Translations under genes and position numbers: made by a program
Assembly (NCBI GenBank): GCA_900065925.1
Contig: LN890280.1
Coordinates: 240,451 to 304,450 of the forward strand
Length of the DNA: 64,000 bases
From: Nitrosotalea devaniterrae
GTDB lineage: Archaea; Thermoproteota; Nitrososphaeria; Nitrososphaerales; Nitrosopumilaceae
Direction: 5' to 3'
The notes under the pieces: generated by a model
The model's database searches: none
What the model was told of the DNA's origin: nothing
The model's input: the letters and a program-made list of their open reading frames with translations, nothing else
Part shown: piece after piece, positions 273 to 36,114 of the stretch
How positions within the stretch are numbered: the stretch's first letter is position 1
How the letters are laid out: every line of letters starts with the position of its first letter

Positions 273-842
273 TTAGGGCAGTTGCCACAGACTTACGGTG
301 TAATTTTTTTCGCCAACCTGATCATGCAATCCAATCTTAAAATCATTTGTACCATATTGGTATATCGTGGAATTCAAATCACTAAATGCTTGACCGGGGA
401 ATGCATTCTCAAGAACGTCAGGTACATTGAATTTGAATTGTTTATAGTAATGGTAATACAAGTCATTACAACTTGTATCAATGGTCTTTAGATCTGTGCG
501 TATGAATGATCTACAATGATCATAAACGGCAATAGGTACACGATTATCTTCATTTGTTGATGTCACGCTATTTTGTAGGTTAGAAATTGATTGTTGTCCC
601 TGTAAAGATATTCGTTGAATCGTACTACCCGTATTGTTGATAACTTTGTTAGCCTCATTCTGTATATTTTGAGGGGTTCCATAGGTTTGCAAAACAAAGT
701 ATCCCCCAATTAACACGCATATTATGGCTGAAAATATGATGATGATTCGTTTGGTGCCTGATTGCCCGGAATGTCTTTTTACGCCCTTGTAACGATTATC
801 GTTTTTGCCATTCTTCCAACTACGCCAATCATCATCACCCAT
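273..842 (-). CDS. Hypothetical single-pass membrane protein
   Basis: This encodes 189 residues. The first 32 are strongly polar (many Asp, Lys, Arg, Asn), followed by one hydrophobic segment at about residues 33-51 and then a soluble domain of about 135 residues rich in Asn, Gln and Ser. It looks like a type II membrane protein with its C-terminus outside the cell, and the outer part contains at least two Cys that could pair. An AGGG lies about 8 bases before the ATG. I do not recognise a family. Its place in the accessory block near an integrase suggests a strain-specific gene. Confidence 0.65.
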   Translation of the reverse strand: MGDDDWRSWKNGKNDNRYKGVKRHSGQSGTKRIIIIFSAIICVLIGGYFVLQTYGTPQNIQNEANKVINNTGSTIQRISLQGQQSISNLQNSVTSTNEDNRVPIAVYDHCRSFIRTDLKTIDTSCNDLYYHYYKQFKFNVPDVLENAFPGQAFSDLNSTIYQYGTNDFKIGLHDQVGEKNYTVSLWQLP

Positions 843-1130
843 ATTTTTCCCTGATAATGGATATGATATGAGTTAGATAAGCATGTCAAAAATACAAGCC
901 CTGTAAGACTCAGATTCTCACAGGTCTGAATCTAGTTGAATTTTTCCAGTACAATACGAGTTTGAAATAAGTATTATAATTATTTCAGGTTCTGCATAGT
1001 CTTCAGCACATTTGTGAGCTTTTCCTACATGTAAAGGCACGACTCATTTTGAGCCTGTAAATCACTTTTCTAGTCAGCGTTTTTTAGGTATTATTCAAAT
1101 ATACCCACATTCTCCTAAAAAAATGGGAGG
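843..1130. other. Intergenic region without a recognisable gene
   Basis: I see no supported gene here. The region holds the upstream sequence of the minus-strand gene starting at 842 and an imperfect inverted repeat around 911-933 (AGATTC and GAATCT arms). The hairpin island begins directly to its right. Confidence 0.4.
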
Positions 1131-1369
1131 GGAATATGAGGGCAAACTCATATTCCAATGGGAAGATTGTTTGTTCAATCTTCTTATTTTCTCACCTTTT
1201 GCTGCAATTAACAATCATCTCAGTTTATGTGAGATGATTGACCCATTGTGGTGCGTTCTGAAAGAACATAGTGCAGAGTTGAGTTGCACTATGAAACGCC
1301 GATGGGTTGTTGGCAGTATTCTGATATGCAATAGGACACATTTGTCCCATTACAATTATGCCAACGACC
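1131..1369. repeat. Island of consecutive inverted repeats (hairpin array)
   Basis: At least five hairpins follow one another. The arms are 1131-1140/1147-1156 (10 bp, perfect, loop 6), 1162-1169/1176-1183 (8 bp, perfect, loop 6), 1212-1222/1230-1240 (11 bp, perfect, loop 7), 1267-1275/1285-1293 (9 bp, perfect, loop 9) and 1306-1315/1360-1369 (10 bp with one wobble). The fourth is nested inside two further helices, 1253-1257/1295-1299 and 1241-1246/1302-1307, so it extends into a long interrupted stem. This density cannot be chance. It may be a structured RNA, or a replication or recombination region of a mobile element. It overlaps the 3' part of a small minus-strand gene. Confidence 0.7.
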
Positions 1370-1428
1370 GCCACAATTGCAACCCCTATAGCTGCTATTG
1401 CGGCCTCTATTGCTTTCTTAATATTCAT
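1225..1428 (-). CDS. Small hydrophobic membrane protein, unknown
   Basis: This encodes 67 residues. After a short basic start, residues about 5-28 form one long Ala/Ile/Val helix with a Gly pair, followed by a polar tail with two Cys. The composition resembles small membrane or coat-like proteins of archaeal mobile elements, but nothing specific is recognised. The 3' two thirds of the gene lie inside the hairpin array, which could constrain or mimic coding sequence. An overlapping plus-strand frame of 130 codons (1123-1515) is a less likely alternative because it is Cys- and His-rich and lacks a plausible composition. Confidence 0.45.
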   Translation of the reverse strand: MNIKKAIEAAIAAIGVAIVAVVGIIVMGQMCPIAYQNTANNPSAFHSATQLCTMFFQNAPQWVNHLT

Positions 1429-1767
1429 GTTATTACTAATAGTAATGATCAGAAGATTATAAAATTTAGAAAACCTATTTTTTGCCGCAGTGTTTATTTA
1501 ACTCCCATTTTTTAGTTGCAGAATTATTTTTTATCAAAAAATAATACGGTGTAATATTTTATAATATTTGATAACATAAATTATTAATTAATAATATTCT
1601 ATATTATTTTCTGACAAGTAAAATTTTAACAGATCAGGAGTTTTATCGTCTAAAATCATGTGTGGTCTAAACATAATTGTAATAAATCTGATAGTATCCA
1701 CATAGAATATCATTTCGTACCTTCACCAGTTTATAGACAAAAAGTAGTATCCTAATAGTATCCAGAA
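1429..1767. other. AT-rich intergenic region
   Basis: No gene is seen here. The region is very AT-rich between about 1520 and 1615. It contains a perfect 10-bp hairpin with a 3-base loop (1523-1545, arms ATTATTTTTT and AAAAAATAAT) and a palindromic TTATTAATTAATAA. It presumably holds the divergent promoters of the genes on either side. The AT-rich hairpin could be a terminator or an unwinding element. Confidence 0.4.
1693..1763 (+). promoter_or_regulatory. Three AGTATCC repeats upstream of a zinc-ribbon gene
   Basis: The word AGTATCC occurs at 1693-1699, 1746-1752 and 1757-1763. The last two copies are 11 bp apart, one helical turn, and the last ends 4 bp before the ATG at 1768. This spacing fits an operator, but it has not been shown. 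Confidence 0.3.
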
Positions 1768-2040
1768 ATGATTGTAATTTCAGTATCAAAACGATGGTAT
1801 CATCCAAGATCGGAGGTAAGACAGCATGGAAAAAACGGTGCAAAGAAGCGTTGGTTTGTATTTTATTTGGATGAAGATGGCAGATTCCGCTCAAAAAGGA
1901 TTCAATGGTACGAGGTTTTGTGGTACAAATCTCAAAAACACTACAAAAGAAGATTGATTTGTCTTGATTGCGATAGAGAGTTTTTCGGATATGTCAGGTC
2001 AATAGATCAAGAGGTAGAGTGTCCTTACTGTGGAAATTAA
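1768..2040 (+). CDS. Small C-terminal zinc-ribbon protein
   Basis: This encodes 90 residues, very basic and aromatic in the first two thirds (several Trp, Tyr, Arg and Lys). A zinc ribbon follows, made of two CxxC knuckles at about residues 68-71 and 85-88 and separated by 13 residues. Such proteins usually bind nucleic acid or act as small adaptors. The three AGTATCC repeats upstream may be its own operator. Its last 4 bases overlap the end of the convergent gene at 2037. The family is not recognised. The gene belongs to the accessory block beside the integrase. Confidence 0.6.
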   Translation: MIVISVSKRWYHPRSEVRQHGKNGAKKRWFVFYLDEDGRFRSKRIQWYEVLWYKSQKHYKRRLICLDCDREFFGYVRSIDQEVECPYCGN

Positions 2041-2594
2041 TCTGCATACCAAAAGGAACCTTTCTTCAAATTACCTATAACATAAGGAAAAAAATATTTT
2101 TCAATTGCAATACCGTTTTTCTTGTATGCAGGATCTGGAGTGTTTAGATATTGACAGACTCTGCATTTTTTGTGGTTAGAGTGGGTATACGTAAGCCAAT
2201 ACTCTACAGGTCTCTCTTTTTTTGTTGATGTATCCTCTTTATTCCTCCATGTTCTTGTCCTATTGTCACGAGTATTTTTTTTCTCAATCTTTGGCACACC
2301 GCGTTTATGACATCTGGGACAAAGATCAATCAATTCCCTTACTGCAGGCTCAACTTTGATGACTTTGACCTTGAAGGACTGGTTATTTTCTATTTCTTTT
2401 ATTACTCCATCTAGGTTTGAAACTGGTTTGACAAAATATTCCCATGTAGTCTGTGCTTTTGCAATGTTGGGATCGTTAGTTTCTACAGTTAATGCGTATA
2501 GAAAGGGCATCTTTACATTGTATTTTTTAATTATCGTATCTTCTTGGAATGCAAGGCTTGCTTCAGTGAATTCGTTTTTTGGTTTTCTTCCCAA
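2037..2594 (-). CDS. Hypothetical zinc-binding protein
   Basis: This encodes 185 residues starting at TTG. Residues about 110-115 form a CPRC-type knuckle and a second CxxC lies near residue 160, with His residues close by, so a structural zinc site is likely. The middle is highly charged (Lys, Arg, Asn, Thr) and probably disordered or nucleic-acid binding. The TTG lies about 26 bp from a TATA box shared with the divergent integrase gene, which supports a leaderless start. I do not recognise a family. Co-regulation with the integrase is an inference from the shared promoter. Confidence 0.6.
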   Translation of the reverse strand: MGRKPKNEFTEASLAFQEDTIIKKYNVKMPFLYALTVETNDPNIAKAQTTWEYFVKPVSNLDGVIKEIENNQSFKVKVIKVEPAVRELIDLCPRCHKRGVPKIEKKNTRDNRTRTWRNKEDTSTKKERPVEYWLTYTHSNHKKCRVCQYLNTPDPAYKKNGIAIEKYFFPYVIGNLKKGSFWYAD

Positions 2595-2647: not shown

Positions 2648-3961
2648 ATGGCAATAGCCGAGTCTGCAGACTCGATCAAAAAAAGAGTAAATACTACAAA
2701 CCCTCTTGTTCTCACAGATGAGGACTGCATTGTGCAGTCTGATGTGGGAAAAAAATTGACATACAAAAAGACAATCTATACAAAGACACAAACCATTCGA
2801 AAGAAACCAACAAAGAAAGCAAAACTTCTAGCCATTCCAGACGTAAAAAGATGGTATGACAATGTCGCAAGGGGAAGTCCAGTATCAGCAGAGATCAATC
2901 TGCGAAGACTATCCAAATTCTGCGAGGACAACAAGATAACACCAACACAGCTTGCAGAATTGGGAATAGCAGATGTCAGAAAAGTCACGGATCTGCTTCA
3001 AGACCAGATATCTTGGATGGAAAGTCAGGGAAAAGCTCCGCAGTACATCAAGGGAACCATAACTGCAATAAAATCATGGCTACATCATTTTGATGTCTTC
3101 ATAAAAAGAAGGATCAAGATAACAGATGTAGATTCCACCCCTACTCTTGCAAACGAAAGAGTGCCAGAAGGATACGAGCTTGCAGAACTGTTCAGCAGAG
3201 CAAACCTGAGGGCAGGAGCTGTCATGTCATTGATTGGAAAGGCAGGACTGCGACCCGAAGTACTTGGAAATCACAACGCAACAGACGGGTTGATGATTAA
3301 GGACTTGCCAGACCTTGAGATCAAACACGGTATGGCTACCTTCTCCAACAAACCTTCCAAAGTGCTAGTAAGAAAGACACTTTCCAAAGCACGTCACGAA
3401 TACTTTACCTTCCTGACAGACTTGGGAGGCAAAAGTCTACTTGCATACCTGAATGAAAGGATAGTTTCAGGGGAAATGCTTACACCCGAGTCTCCAGTTA
3501 TTGCACCGTTTGCAAAATACGAAAGATTCAGGGGAGAGAACAAGGGAAAAAGATTCGTAGAGACACTGACAATCCGCAGGGAAGTCCAAAAGATTATGCG
3601 ACCAAGATTCTTGTGGAGACCATATGTGCTAAGGGCATACTTTGACACACAGTTGCTAATTGCAGAATCTAGGGGAAAGATAGCGCATGACTTTCGTGTG
3701 TTCTTTATGGGTCACAAGGGAAGCATGGAAGCCAAGTACACAACCAATAAAGGAATTCTTCCAGACTTGCTCATCAATGAAATGAGAAATGCATTTAGTA
3801 GAAGTGAAGAATTTCTTGATCTGGAAAAAGTAAACGATCAACAGTTGAAAAAACAAAAAGAGACAACAGAAAAACTTGGCAATCTGACACAAGAAGAACT
3901 TGAACTGTTGCAAAAATTACTTGCAAAAATTGACAACAGCAAAACTAGTATGACCAACTAG
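2648..3961 (+). CDS. Tyrosine recombinase / integrase
   Basis: This encodes 437 residues and is a site-specific recombinase of the phage-integrase fold in an archaeal form. An N-terminal SAM-like DNA-binding domain (about residues 55-150) precedes the catalytic domain. The box I Arg is in GLRPEV near residue 200. Box II is represented by the Arg in YVLRAYFD near 325, and the C-terminal GHKG followed by Tyr in EAKYTTNK (about 354-363) gives the His and the nucleophile. The last 40 residues are Lys/Gln/Glu-rich and probably a coiled coil. The gene ends 105 bp from the 3' end of tRNA-Arg, the usual attachment site of such enzymes. It probably drives integration and excision of the element to its left. 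Confidence 0.88.
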   Translation: MAIAESADSIKKRVNTTNPLVLTDEDCIVQSDVGKKLTYKKTIYTKTQTIRKKPTKKAKLLAIPDVKRWYDNVARGSPVSAEINLRRLSKFCEDNKITPTQLAELGIADVRKVTDLLQDQISWMESQGKAPQYIKGTITAIKSWLHHFDVFIKRRIKITDVDSTPTLANERVPEGYELAELFSRANLRAGAVMSLIGKAGLRPEVLGNHNATDGLMIKDLPDLEIKHGMATFSNKPSKVLVRKTLSKARHEYFTFLTDLGGKSLLAYLNERIVSGEMLTPESPVIAPFAKYERFRGENKGKRFVETLTIRREVQKIMRPRFLWRPYVLRAYFDTQLLIAESRGKIAHDFRVFFMGHKGSMEAKYTTNKGILPDLLINEMRNAFSRSEEFLDLEKVNDQQLKKQKETTEKLGNLTQEELELLQKLLAKIDNSKTSMTN

Positions 3962-4066
3962 ATCACTGACAGAAAAAAATTCATAACAAAAAACAAAATC
4001 AACATCTTGAAACTTTCGAATGGAAATAGGTGTAAAAAACGACAGGACGCGCTATATCAGATTAAA

Positions 4067-4141
4067 CGGGCCCGAAGGGCTTCGATCCCTTGACCACTGG
4101 ATTAGAAGTCCAGCACTCTATCCAAGCTGAGCTACAGGCCC
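4067..4141 (-). tRNA. tRNA-Arg (anticodon TCT)
   Basis: It folds as a cloverleaf with acceptor arms GGGCCTG and CGGGCCC, an anticodon stem TGGAC/GTCCA enclosing loop TTCTAAT (anticodon TCT), and a TTCGAAG-type T loop. The discriminator base is G, and CCA is not encoded. I see no intron. Its 3' end faces the integrase gene, so it is the likely attachment site of the integrated element. Confidence 0.93.
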
Positions 4142-4176
4142 AAATACCGGGCAATTAGTAGCCATATTAAGGGTTT

Positions 4177-33084: not shown

Positions 33085-36000
33085 ATGAATTATTCGACAA
33101 CGTTATCTTATACATCTTCTAATATTAGAAAGTTGTATAAAATTCTAGTAACTTTACTAGTCTTCTCATTGATTATCCCGCCGATCTCTTCACCTAGTGT
33201 AAATGCATATTCTGATCATCCTAATCTTTTTGTCTCTGCAGAAAATAGTCTATTTACTAATCATTTCTCAGGACCAATGATAGTGCAAGTTATTGTACAA
33301 GAAGATAATACCCAATTAGATCAAGCAATAGGACAACCGAATGTCTCCGTAAACGGACGGCATCTTCAGATGGTACAAGGCTCTGATGGTAATTGGCATG
33401 CATTTTTTGCTAATACTGATAGTGCGAAACAGGCTGATCAAGCTGCTCTATCTGGCTCTTCAGGACAAAGTATTGATTTTGGAGTCTTTTGCTCAAGCTC
33501 TACTTCTCCAACTGTTCTAGGAATAGATGTATCTCAAACTGATGGAGTGGCAATTCCTGATTCTGCAGGATTATCTGGTACTACTCAGGGAACTGCAGGT
33601 TTTACTTCATGCAGTGGTACGCCTACAACCCCCTCAAATCAAAACAATGTGATAAGAAATCCTCCTTCTTTGAATCTGAATCCACAAGTTCCAACTGGCC
33701 AAATAGGAATAAATCAAAATGTTTGGCCACTCATTCAGCTTTTTACATTGAGTAATAATGTTCACATAGAATATGATCGTTCTACCGGTACACAAAGCGT
33801 TGATCTTGATTATTCTGATATTCCAAACATTTCATTGGGTGTTGATAGAACTGGATATCCTACCGGTTCCGATGTTTTTGCAACTATTGATGATGCTGAA
33901 TTAAGCATAGATCCCACATCTCAGGATTCATGGACCTTTAATGTTGGTTCTAATCCTGCAACATTTTATCAAGCATTTGCAGAATCGGGCAGTAGTGCAA
34001 GCGGATCTGGTCTAGTAAATCTGATACCTTATCTGAATAGTCTTGGATTCAAAGATAATGGAAAACTGAGTATGGATACCTCAGATGTTATTAACTTGAA
34101 AACTAATTCTGTTCAAACAAGCTCATCACTAAATGGCATGTACAACAAGCTAGTAACTTTTGTAGAAACAGGGCCACATACTGGAATTTTTGAAAGCTCG
34201 TTTGCTGGTGTATCGACAATTGGAACACTTCCAAATGCTCCTAGAGCTCACTCTGGATCAATCACCTATGACCTTCAAAGTGCTTCTATTGTTTCAGGTA
34301 CTTCTACTGCAAGTCTCACTGTTGGTAGTGGTCAGAGTCAGTTTGGTCCTGGTCAAAGGGAAGCGATTACTCTGGTAGATAATGATCAAAACATTAATTC
34401 TGCACAGGTTGATCAACTAAATGTCTTTAGATCTGCTGCAAAAATTCCAACCTTGAAGATTGGAAATCCAATAACGCTGAGTAGCTCATCTAACGTTAAA
34501 TTTTATAATAATTTACTTTCCATTTCTGTACCGTCTACAGTATTTGATGCCAATTCACTAAGATTGATAATTGATACTAAATCTCAATCAATGTCAAATT
34601 TTCAGAAAATTACCCTAAATCTGGGTGTTTCAGCCCAGTCTCTTAAGGACTTGCTCATAGATACAAGCCAATCAAATTCAAAAGGAACTAATTGGGTTAA
34701 TTATGATCTGAGATCATTTCAACAGCAGCTTGGAATAACTTCATTTTCCAGTGTTACCATGACATTATATTTTGGATCTGTTGGATCTTCTCCGGTCGTA
34801 ATTGTACCATCTGGAACAATCGTGTCAGGTAATGGTCTACTTCAGATAAGTAATTCTGCAGTAACGTCCATCAAATCAATGTCATCAAACCTACCTGTAT
34901 TTTTAGAAATTAATTTCAATACTTCTGGTAAGATTTCAAATCCAAGTGATACACAACCCATTGTATTTGATCTCTTTTCTTTTGGAAATAATGGAAACCA
35001 ACTAGTAAACAATGCTATCTATAGAGCAGAACTACAAGAAACATCTGCTAACTCTGGTGTCTTTTCTGGAACAATGGAATATGCCGTAATAAATCAATTA
35101 AATCAATTTGATCCTAATTTGATCAAGGGACTTCGAACTTTTGGTAGTAATATTAAATTTCTTGTAAGTACTGAACTTACAGACTCCAATGCAATACACT
35201 TTTCAATTCTAGGTACACAAGGAGGAACATCAACAACAGTGACATCACAACACAATCTTCCAACAAATACTGGTGTAGTTACGCTTGATTCGCCAAATTA
35301 TAGAATTGGATCTGATGTTACAATAACAGTCAATGATCCGGATCTAGTTACTGATGCTAATACAATTGTAACATATACAAGTGTAAACGATCCTGGTTCC
35401 ACAGCTGATGATACCGTTGGGGATAATGGTGGAAACATACTCTTAGAGGTATGGATTAAAGGATTCAGATTTCAACATTGTACCGTGAATGGAGTTGCAC
35501 ATGGAGGGCTTGCTGCCACCGGTTTTACATTAACTGAAACCGGACCAGGTACTGGAATATTCAAAGGAATTTTTAAAATGCCTTCATCGATATGTATCGA
35601 AGATAAGGCTTCTCTAATATCACCAGTGGGTGGCAGTGTCCAGGCATGGTATCATGATTTTCGAGATCAATATGGTAGATCCGTCATAATCAGTTCAACG
35701 GTAGCAATTCCTGCTAAAACTCAATCTACAACAACCGCCAATCAATATGTGCCAACAATTGCTACACCGGTAGTCTCAACATCCACTCAGATTAGTGATC
35801 AATCTGGAAGACCTCTTCTACAGAGCCCACACGTTGGACAAACAATCAACTTCAAAGGCATGATATCAAATAAATATTATCAAGATTCCCAGAGAATTTC
35901 CTACATTGTTCAAATAAAAGATAGTAATAACAAAGTGGTTTTTCTAAAATGGTCTGAAGATAATCTTGTAAATCTATCTACCACTAATGAAGAAATTAGT

Positions 36001-36114
36001 TGGGTACCAACATTATCTGGAGCATATTCTGCAGAAGTTTATGTATGGAATGGAATGGATTCTCTAGTACCGCTTGCAGATCAAAATCAATACAAAATTC
36101 AAGTTTTACCATAA
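33085..36114 (+). CDS. Large exported surface protein
   Basis: This encodes 1009 residues. A signal peptide (hydrophobic residues about 21-38, ending SVNA before YSDHP) leads into a Ser/Thr/Asn/Gly-rich beta-sandwich ectodomain. It contains repeated motifs of the kind ETGPHTGIFE, ETSANSGVFSG and ETGPGTGIFKG, each ending a sandwich domain, as seen in thaumarchaeal S-layer-like proteins. There is no C-terminal membrane helix and no PEFG signal, so it is probably secreted or held non-covalently. It may be a cell-surface or S-layer component. It has no operon partner. Confidence 0.75.
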   Translation: MNYSTTLSYTSSNIRKLYKILVTLLVFSLIIPPISSPSVNAYSDHPNLFVSAENSLFTNHFSGPMIVQVIVQEDNTQLDQAIGQPNVSVNGRHLQMVQGSDGNWHAFFANTDSAKQADQAALSGSSGQSIDFGVFCSSSTSPTVLGIDVSQTDGVAIPDSAGLSGTTQGTAGFTSCSGTPTTPSNQNNVIRNPPSLNLNPQVPTGQIGINQNVWPLIQLFTLSNNVHIEYDRSTGTQSVDLDYSDIPNISLGVDRTGYPTGSDVFATIDDAELSIDPTSQDSWTFNVGSNPATFYQAFAESGSSASGSGLVNLIPYLNSLGFKDNGKLSMDTSDVINLKTNSVQTSSSLNGMYNKLVTFVETGPHTGIFESSFAGVSTIGTLPNAPRAHSGSITYDLQSASIVSGTSTASLTVGSGQSQFGPGQREAITLVDNDQNINSAQVDQLNVFRSAAKIPTLKIGNPITLSSSSNVKFYNNLLSISVPSTVFDANSLRLIIDTKSQSMSNFQKITLNLGVSAQSLKDLLIDTSQSNSKGTNWVNYDLRSFQQQLGITSFSSVTMTLYFGSVGSSPVVIVPSGTIVSGNGLLQISNSAVTSIKSMSSNLPVFLEINFNTSGKISNPSDTQPIVFDLFSFGNNGNQLVNNAIYRAELQETSANSGVFSGTMEYAVINQLNQFDPNLIKGLRTFGSNIKFLVSTELTDSNAIHFSILGTQGGTSTTVTSQHNLPTNTGVVTLDSPNYRIGSDVTITVNDPDLVTDANTIVTYTSVNDPGSTADDTVGDNGGNILLEVWIKGFRFQHCTVNGVAHGGLAATGFTLTETGPGTGIFKGIFKMPSSICIEDKASLISPVGGSVQAWYHDFRDQYGRSVIISSTVAIPAKTQSTTTANQYVPTIATPVVSTSTQISDQSGRPLLQSPHVGQTINFKGMISNKYYQDSQRISYIVQIKDSNNKVVFLKWSEDNLVNLSTTNEEISWVPTLSGAYSAEVYVWNGMDSLVPLADQNQYKIQVLP

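Follow-up and report, generated by a model that had tools for sequence, protein, structure and literature searches.

Genetic context of the hairpin array

We analysed a stretch of 64,000 nucleotides (hereafter the window; G000:C1:240451-304450) from a single-contig genome of 1,805,304 bases. A tyrosine-recombinase element of 5,456 bp, whose exact ends are set by a 12-bp att sequence, reaches into the window from the left, and its genes encode a receiver-domain protein, p253, p189, p67, p90, p185 and an integrase. An array of five closely packed hairpins, arranged head to tail at 1131-1370, lies within this element, less than 4 kb from the start of the window. The main features are as follows.

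G000:C1:239061-239072, outside the window: left att copy (12 bp, tRNA 3' end)
273-842, minus strand: p189, membrane protein, downstream of the array
1225-1428, minus strand: p67, 67-codon ORF with an N-terminal membrane segment
1768-2040, plus strand: p90, Zn-ribbon protein of the conserved module
2037-2594, minus strand: p185, conserved module protein
2648-3961, plus strand: integrase, assigned as a thaumarchaeal XerC/D-like tyrosine recombinase
4067-4078: right att core CGGGCCCGAAGG, inside tRNA-Arg(TCT) at 4066-4142

The first-pass annotation had supposed an integrated element here, and its boundaries could be demonstrated. The 12-bp att is duplicated, and the site is empty in the sister species G010 and G021, where a flanking 116-aa gene, the tRNA and a DNA-glycosylase gene follow one another without interruption; the alignment ends at the 12-mer. 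The integrase gene ends about 100 bases from tRNA-Arg(TCT), and relatives of the integrase were found in 61 of the 250 family genomes. The family gave no match above cut-off in Pfam, PHROGs or NCBIfam, and its probable assignment to the tyrosine recombinases is based on invariant residues (R, H, GH and Y) together with the context. A profile search of the integrase against the PDB matched only TAL-effector repeats, over a stretch of 30-40 residues, which we judged spurious. Thaumarchaeal cryptic integrated elements (CIE) are described by Krupovic et al. (2019, PMC6563490) as spanning 2.6-98 kb, most of them with att shorter than 26 bp. With an integrase, an att duplication and empty sites in relatives all found, the element fits this class.

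The integrase/p185/p90 module recurs in L024 and in another genus (G237), with p90 identities of 85% and 75%, respectively. The element of the other genus occupies the same tRNA-Arg between the same flanking genes and carries different cargo. Homology stops at about 1640 (L024) and about 1712 (G237), indicating that the array belongs to the private cargo of the element. The related loci carry the names Candidatus Nitrosotalea, Nitrosotenuis, Nitrosarchaeum and other Thaumarchaeota. Homologues of p189 in other genomes are weak and have mainly an N-terminal motif in common.

Several further observations were made around these genes. The p253 gene (L010:14319-15080, minus strand) lies left of the window and extends into it at 1-80. 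Its product resembles the N-terminal ~250 residues of long surface-protein-like ORFs (about 1000 to 1990 aa) that occur across the genus, one of them at 33085-36114 of the window, which suggests that p253 is a truncated S-layer-type protein carried by the element. The genes flanking tRNA-Arg are 1.2-8 kb apart in many congeners, consistent with other insertions, and the site at 4066-4142 looks like an integration hot spot. Beside p90, at about 1640-1760 on the minus strand, a decayed remnant has similarity to the C-terminal end of a DDE transposase; it is better kept at L024:3193-3570, where the rve_3 match (E 0.05) does not reach the curated cut-off. At 1500-1620, where private cargo meets the conserved module, the sequence is 78-88% A+T and contains short palindromes.

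We also found a conserved 35-base intergenic box near p189, with the consensus TCCTGTAAGACTCRGAYTCTCACAGGTCTGAACCC, at 899-934 on the plus strand. A second copy is located at G000:C1:386890-386937, and further copies occur in eight congeners, some of them near integrases. Most copies retain a 6-bp stem with the loop CTCACA, and they do so largely by G-U changes on one side of the stem. A degenerate partial copy, TTTTCAGAGGTCTGAACCT, is located at 222-248 on the other side of p189. The two thus flank p189, an arrangement that may be due to chance.

Structure of the hairpin array

The first-pass annotation had listed stems of 10, 8, 11 and 9 bp and a longer wobble stem in succession. All of these are present, and the parts of the array are given below.

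1131-1156: H1, perfect 10-bp stem GGAATATGAG/CTCATATTCC, loop GGCAAA (6 bases)
1157-1188: H2, AATGGGAAGATTG/CAATCTTCTTATT, 13 bp with two G-U on the plus strand
1162-1183: H2 core, 8 bp, perfect
1201-1252: H3, perfect 11-bp stem at 1212-1240 with a loop of 7, within an 8-bp outer helix
1253-1300: H4, perfect 9-bp stem at 1267-1293 with a loop of 9, nested in GCGTT/AACGC
1304-1370: H5, outer wobble stem GGTTGTTGGC/GCCAACGACC (1305-1369) with one G-U on the plus strand
about 1327-1354: H5 inner hairpin, its full 12-bp helix (two G-U) on the minus strand only

The DNA fold adds a further closing helix around H4 that is common to H4 and H5, and the earlier description of one stem nested in two more helices is borne out by H4. 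H1, H3 and H4 are perfect Watson-Crick stems and thus the same on both strands. The non-Watson-Crick positions appear as G-U on the plus strand in H2 (two), the H3 outer helix (three; present on this strand only) and the H5 outer stem (one), and on the minus strand in the H5 inner hairpin (two) and a marginal sixth hairpin (one). These counts, about six on the plus versus about three on the minus strand, give no clear strand preference and do not decide between the strands. Between 1122 and 1350 (about 230 bases) there are four occurrences of the hexamer AATGGG or its complement; 0.16 are expected in the 306-base region tested, a figure that carries no correction for the choice of motif.

Folding strength and rarity of the array

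Folding placed the region well below its shuffles on both strands. The RNA fold of 1100-1400 gave z = -6.3 (plus) and -6.5 (minus), and the DNA fold of 1127-1375 gave z = -7.69 and -7.63 on the two strands. None of the 100-200 shuffles folded as well on either strand, as RNA or as DNA. The half at 1129-1254 reached z = -7.09 on the plus and -5.77 on the minus strand as RNA, with fold energies of -50.6 versus -40.4 kcal/mol. On the plus strand, the minimum free energy structure of this half equals the centroid and has an ensemble frequency of 24%.

Across its 64 kb, the window has 19 perfect hairpins with stems of 8 bp or more; eight of these lie in 456-1608, and four fall within 163 bases in the array. 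No second cluster of four stems of at least 7 bp within 300 bases was found in about 0.72 Mb, made up of stretches of the host genome and loci around related integrases. In a wider scan of 0.95 Mb with a 260-base span, the array reached 38 summed stem bp, and the best rival 31. It also ranked first of 6,309 composition-corrected 200-base windows (residual -6.46; next distinct locus -5.39), and first among same-tRNA-site insertions and the closest elements. Strong folds at L028, L033 and L058 proved to be mostly single long inverted repeats and no arrays. Taken together, the array is rare and goes beyond chance.

Search for relatives of the array

As the first-pass annotation had stated, no known element explains the array, and no Rfam covariance model scored above its gathering threshold. 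At the DNA level, the 36 congeners gave three weak matches, all due to chance, and the search of plasmids and phages that the annotation had called for returned nothing beyond chance, nor did two of the stems used as queries against viral contigs. Single-sequence covariance models of both halves found nothing beyond chance in the element loci; the same held for model R1 against the 36 congeners and for model R2 against the host's own genome. The two R1 matches, both in G008, fall within a MarR-like gene, have many of their pairs broken and were assigned to chance. The same judgement was made for a match of the H1 palindrome to viral contig L201, which is a single 18-bp hairpin between genes; this contig carries a type II topoisomerase-like gene.

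No such array is present in the elements that share the integrase/p185/p90 module, the one at the same tRNA included. Elsewhere in the genome, the arms gave only chance matches of fewer than 30 bases, and the multiple copies that mark REP, MITE or IS sequences were not seen. The annotation had held that its reading would be refuted if the array were absent from all relatives and lacked covariation, or if its stems were explained by repeats of a known insertion sequence. The first of these is half true, as the array is absent from every relative searched; the second does not apply, the arms not being copied in the genome. Across these searches, the array is an orphan.

The array and the p67 gene

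The annotation had placed the hairpins over the 3' half of a small gene and its flank. This gene is p67, the 67-codon minus-strand ORF running from 1428 to 1225, followed by its downstream flank: H4 and H5 lie in its 3' half and its stop codon falls within H3. Two signals accompany it.

1456-1463, minus strand: TATA-like TTTATAAT, 35 bases before the p67 ATG
1118-1124, minus strand: U7 tract (A7 on the plus strand), just past H1, candidate archaeal-type terminator for a p67 transcript

The p67 frame is the best-scoring frame of the minus strand, with 0.21 bits per codon, compared with 0.15-0.30 for p90, p185 and the integrase and 0.04 for p189. The position of TTTATAAT is one base outside the TATA peak (-34 to -29) of 182 upstream regions from the host and related genomes, a peak that was found with a fixed consensus. 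Archaeal terminators are U tracts of 4-7 (PMC8716108). Scanning from the p67 ATG, U7 is the first long U tract on the minus strand, so that all the hairpins lie between the p67 membrane segment and U7.

Mainly because of the p67 start, the box at -35, the frame score and the U tract just past H1, we prefer, tentatively, the reading in which the mRNA of p67, a private gene for a small membrane protein, forms the array by folding of its 3' half and 3' UTR; we consider this possible rather than probable. Minus-strand transcription would start leaderless at about 1428, proceed through p67 (H5, H4 and the stop codon in H3) and on through H2 and H1, and terminate at 1118-1124, in the U7 tract. The stems, their departure from randomness, their position in the element, the ORF and the signals are observed; that such a p67 RNA exists, and the role of its hairpins, we infer. 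They would protect the 3' end of the short p67 message and insulate the downstream co-directional gene p189, and may also slow translation near the p67 stop.

The minus strand folds as far below its shuffles as the plus strand, which is in favour of this reading. Against it, it is the plus strand that gives the strongest half (1129-1254) its better and more unique fold, and archaeal termination does not need hairpins. The coding signal of p67 is positive in the first 30 codons and nil in the remainder. No credible p67 homologue was found in the 250 family genomes, and none at E 0.001 in 400 class genomes; matches at E about 0.004 lie inside or across other genes and were rejected. The C-terminal half without a coding signal and the lack of a credible homologue together suggest that the p67 gene may be spurious.

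Alternative explanations

The equality of the two strands would also suit a structure formed by DNA. In the circle formed by excision of the element, the palindromes could extrude as hairpins or cruciforms and serve as a signal for packaging or one of the origin type, which we regard as a somewhat doubtful explanation that still deserves attention. The strand-equal perfect stems H1, H3 and H4, the equally extreme DNA folds (z -7.69 and -7.63), the imperfect positions, which are transitions split between the strands (about six G-U on the plus, three on the minus), and the 88% A+T stretch nearby are all consistent with it. There is also a precedent in pRN1, where the essential origin stem-loop of 100 bp shows poor sequence conservation and is kept in shape (PMC4234260). 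However, no Rep or primase-helicase of the kind that goes with a rolling-circle or pRN-type origin was recognised among the element proteins, the elements sharing the conserved module, even at the same tRNA, have no such array, and the array partly overlaps an ORF. A plus-strand non-coding RNA of abutting hairpins, starting near 1127, would instead account for the most extreme RNA fold (1129-1254 on the plus strand, z -7.09) and for H2 and the H3 outer helix, which are continuous only on that strand. A TATA-like box, TTCAAATA (1094-1101, plus strand), fits as a weak candidate; a transcript directed by it would begin at about 1124-1128, where H1 has its foot. By our estimate, however, about 0.6 matches of this quality are expected by chance in the scanned stretch. 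We think such an RNA rather unlikely, given the lack of an Rfam match, the two chance matches of model R1 in a MarR-like gene as its only yield from 36 congeners, the better formation of the H5 inner hairpin on the minus strand, and the U-rich runs at 1184-1199, which would tend to end a plus-strand transcript after H2.

The orphan status of the array, its place in private cargo, the four copies of AATGGG or its complement and the scattered palindromes of other elements would agree with operator-like dyads or a neutral palindrome-rich patch having no structural role. The arms of 9-11 bp around loops of 6-9 bases nevertheless differ in sequence, unlike repeated operators, and the few mismatches point to recent origin or maintenance, so we consider this improbable. 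We give a similarly low probability to an as yet undescribed module of several hairpins that would serve replication, packaging or regulation in a satellite-like thaumarchaeal element, having entered it as cargo and changing too quickly for its relatives to be found by sequence. A recombinase target, as the first-pass annotation had proposed, or the remains of an insertion sequence would be in keeping with the integrase 1.3 kb away and the weak transposase-like remnant at about 1640-1760. However, the att is elsewhere and fully defined, its core (4067-4078, in tRNA-Arg) being 2.7 kb off and sharing no repeat with the stems; the arms are not repeated in the genome; and the remnant is outside the array, in the stretch that L024 also has. 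We consider a recombinase target unlikely and hold this whole explanation to be very improbable.

Comparison with known systems

In small cryptic elements of ammonia-oxidising archaea, genes for replication and transfer are often not recognised. A densely structured segment in such an element offers a concrete candidate for an element-borne RNA or a signal acting in cis. As an isolated case without homologues, the array is of value mainly because it gives transcript mapping in the host a defined target.

Like REP and RIT palindromic repeats (PMC12306157), the array consists of palindromes clustered between or near genes, but its hairpins are not repeated in the host genome or its relatives. 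The U7 tract at the putative transcript end resembles archaeal U-tract terminators and 3' UTRs, although these do not require hairpins (PMC8716108) and five in succession would be unusual. As in pRN plasmids (PMC4234260, PMC3869888), a small mobile element of archaea carries strong stem-loops whose sequence is not conserved, whereas pRN1 has one 100-bp stem-loop by its replication gene and the present element has five short hairpins, with no replication gene recognised. While the main text on CIE mentions no hairpin, the element resembles those described there in its tyrosine integrase, short att in a tRNA 3' end, orphan cargo and small size (PMC6563490).
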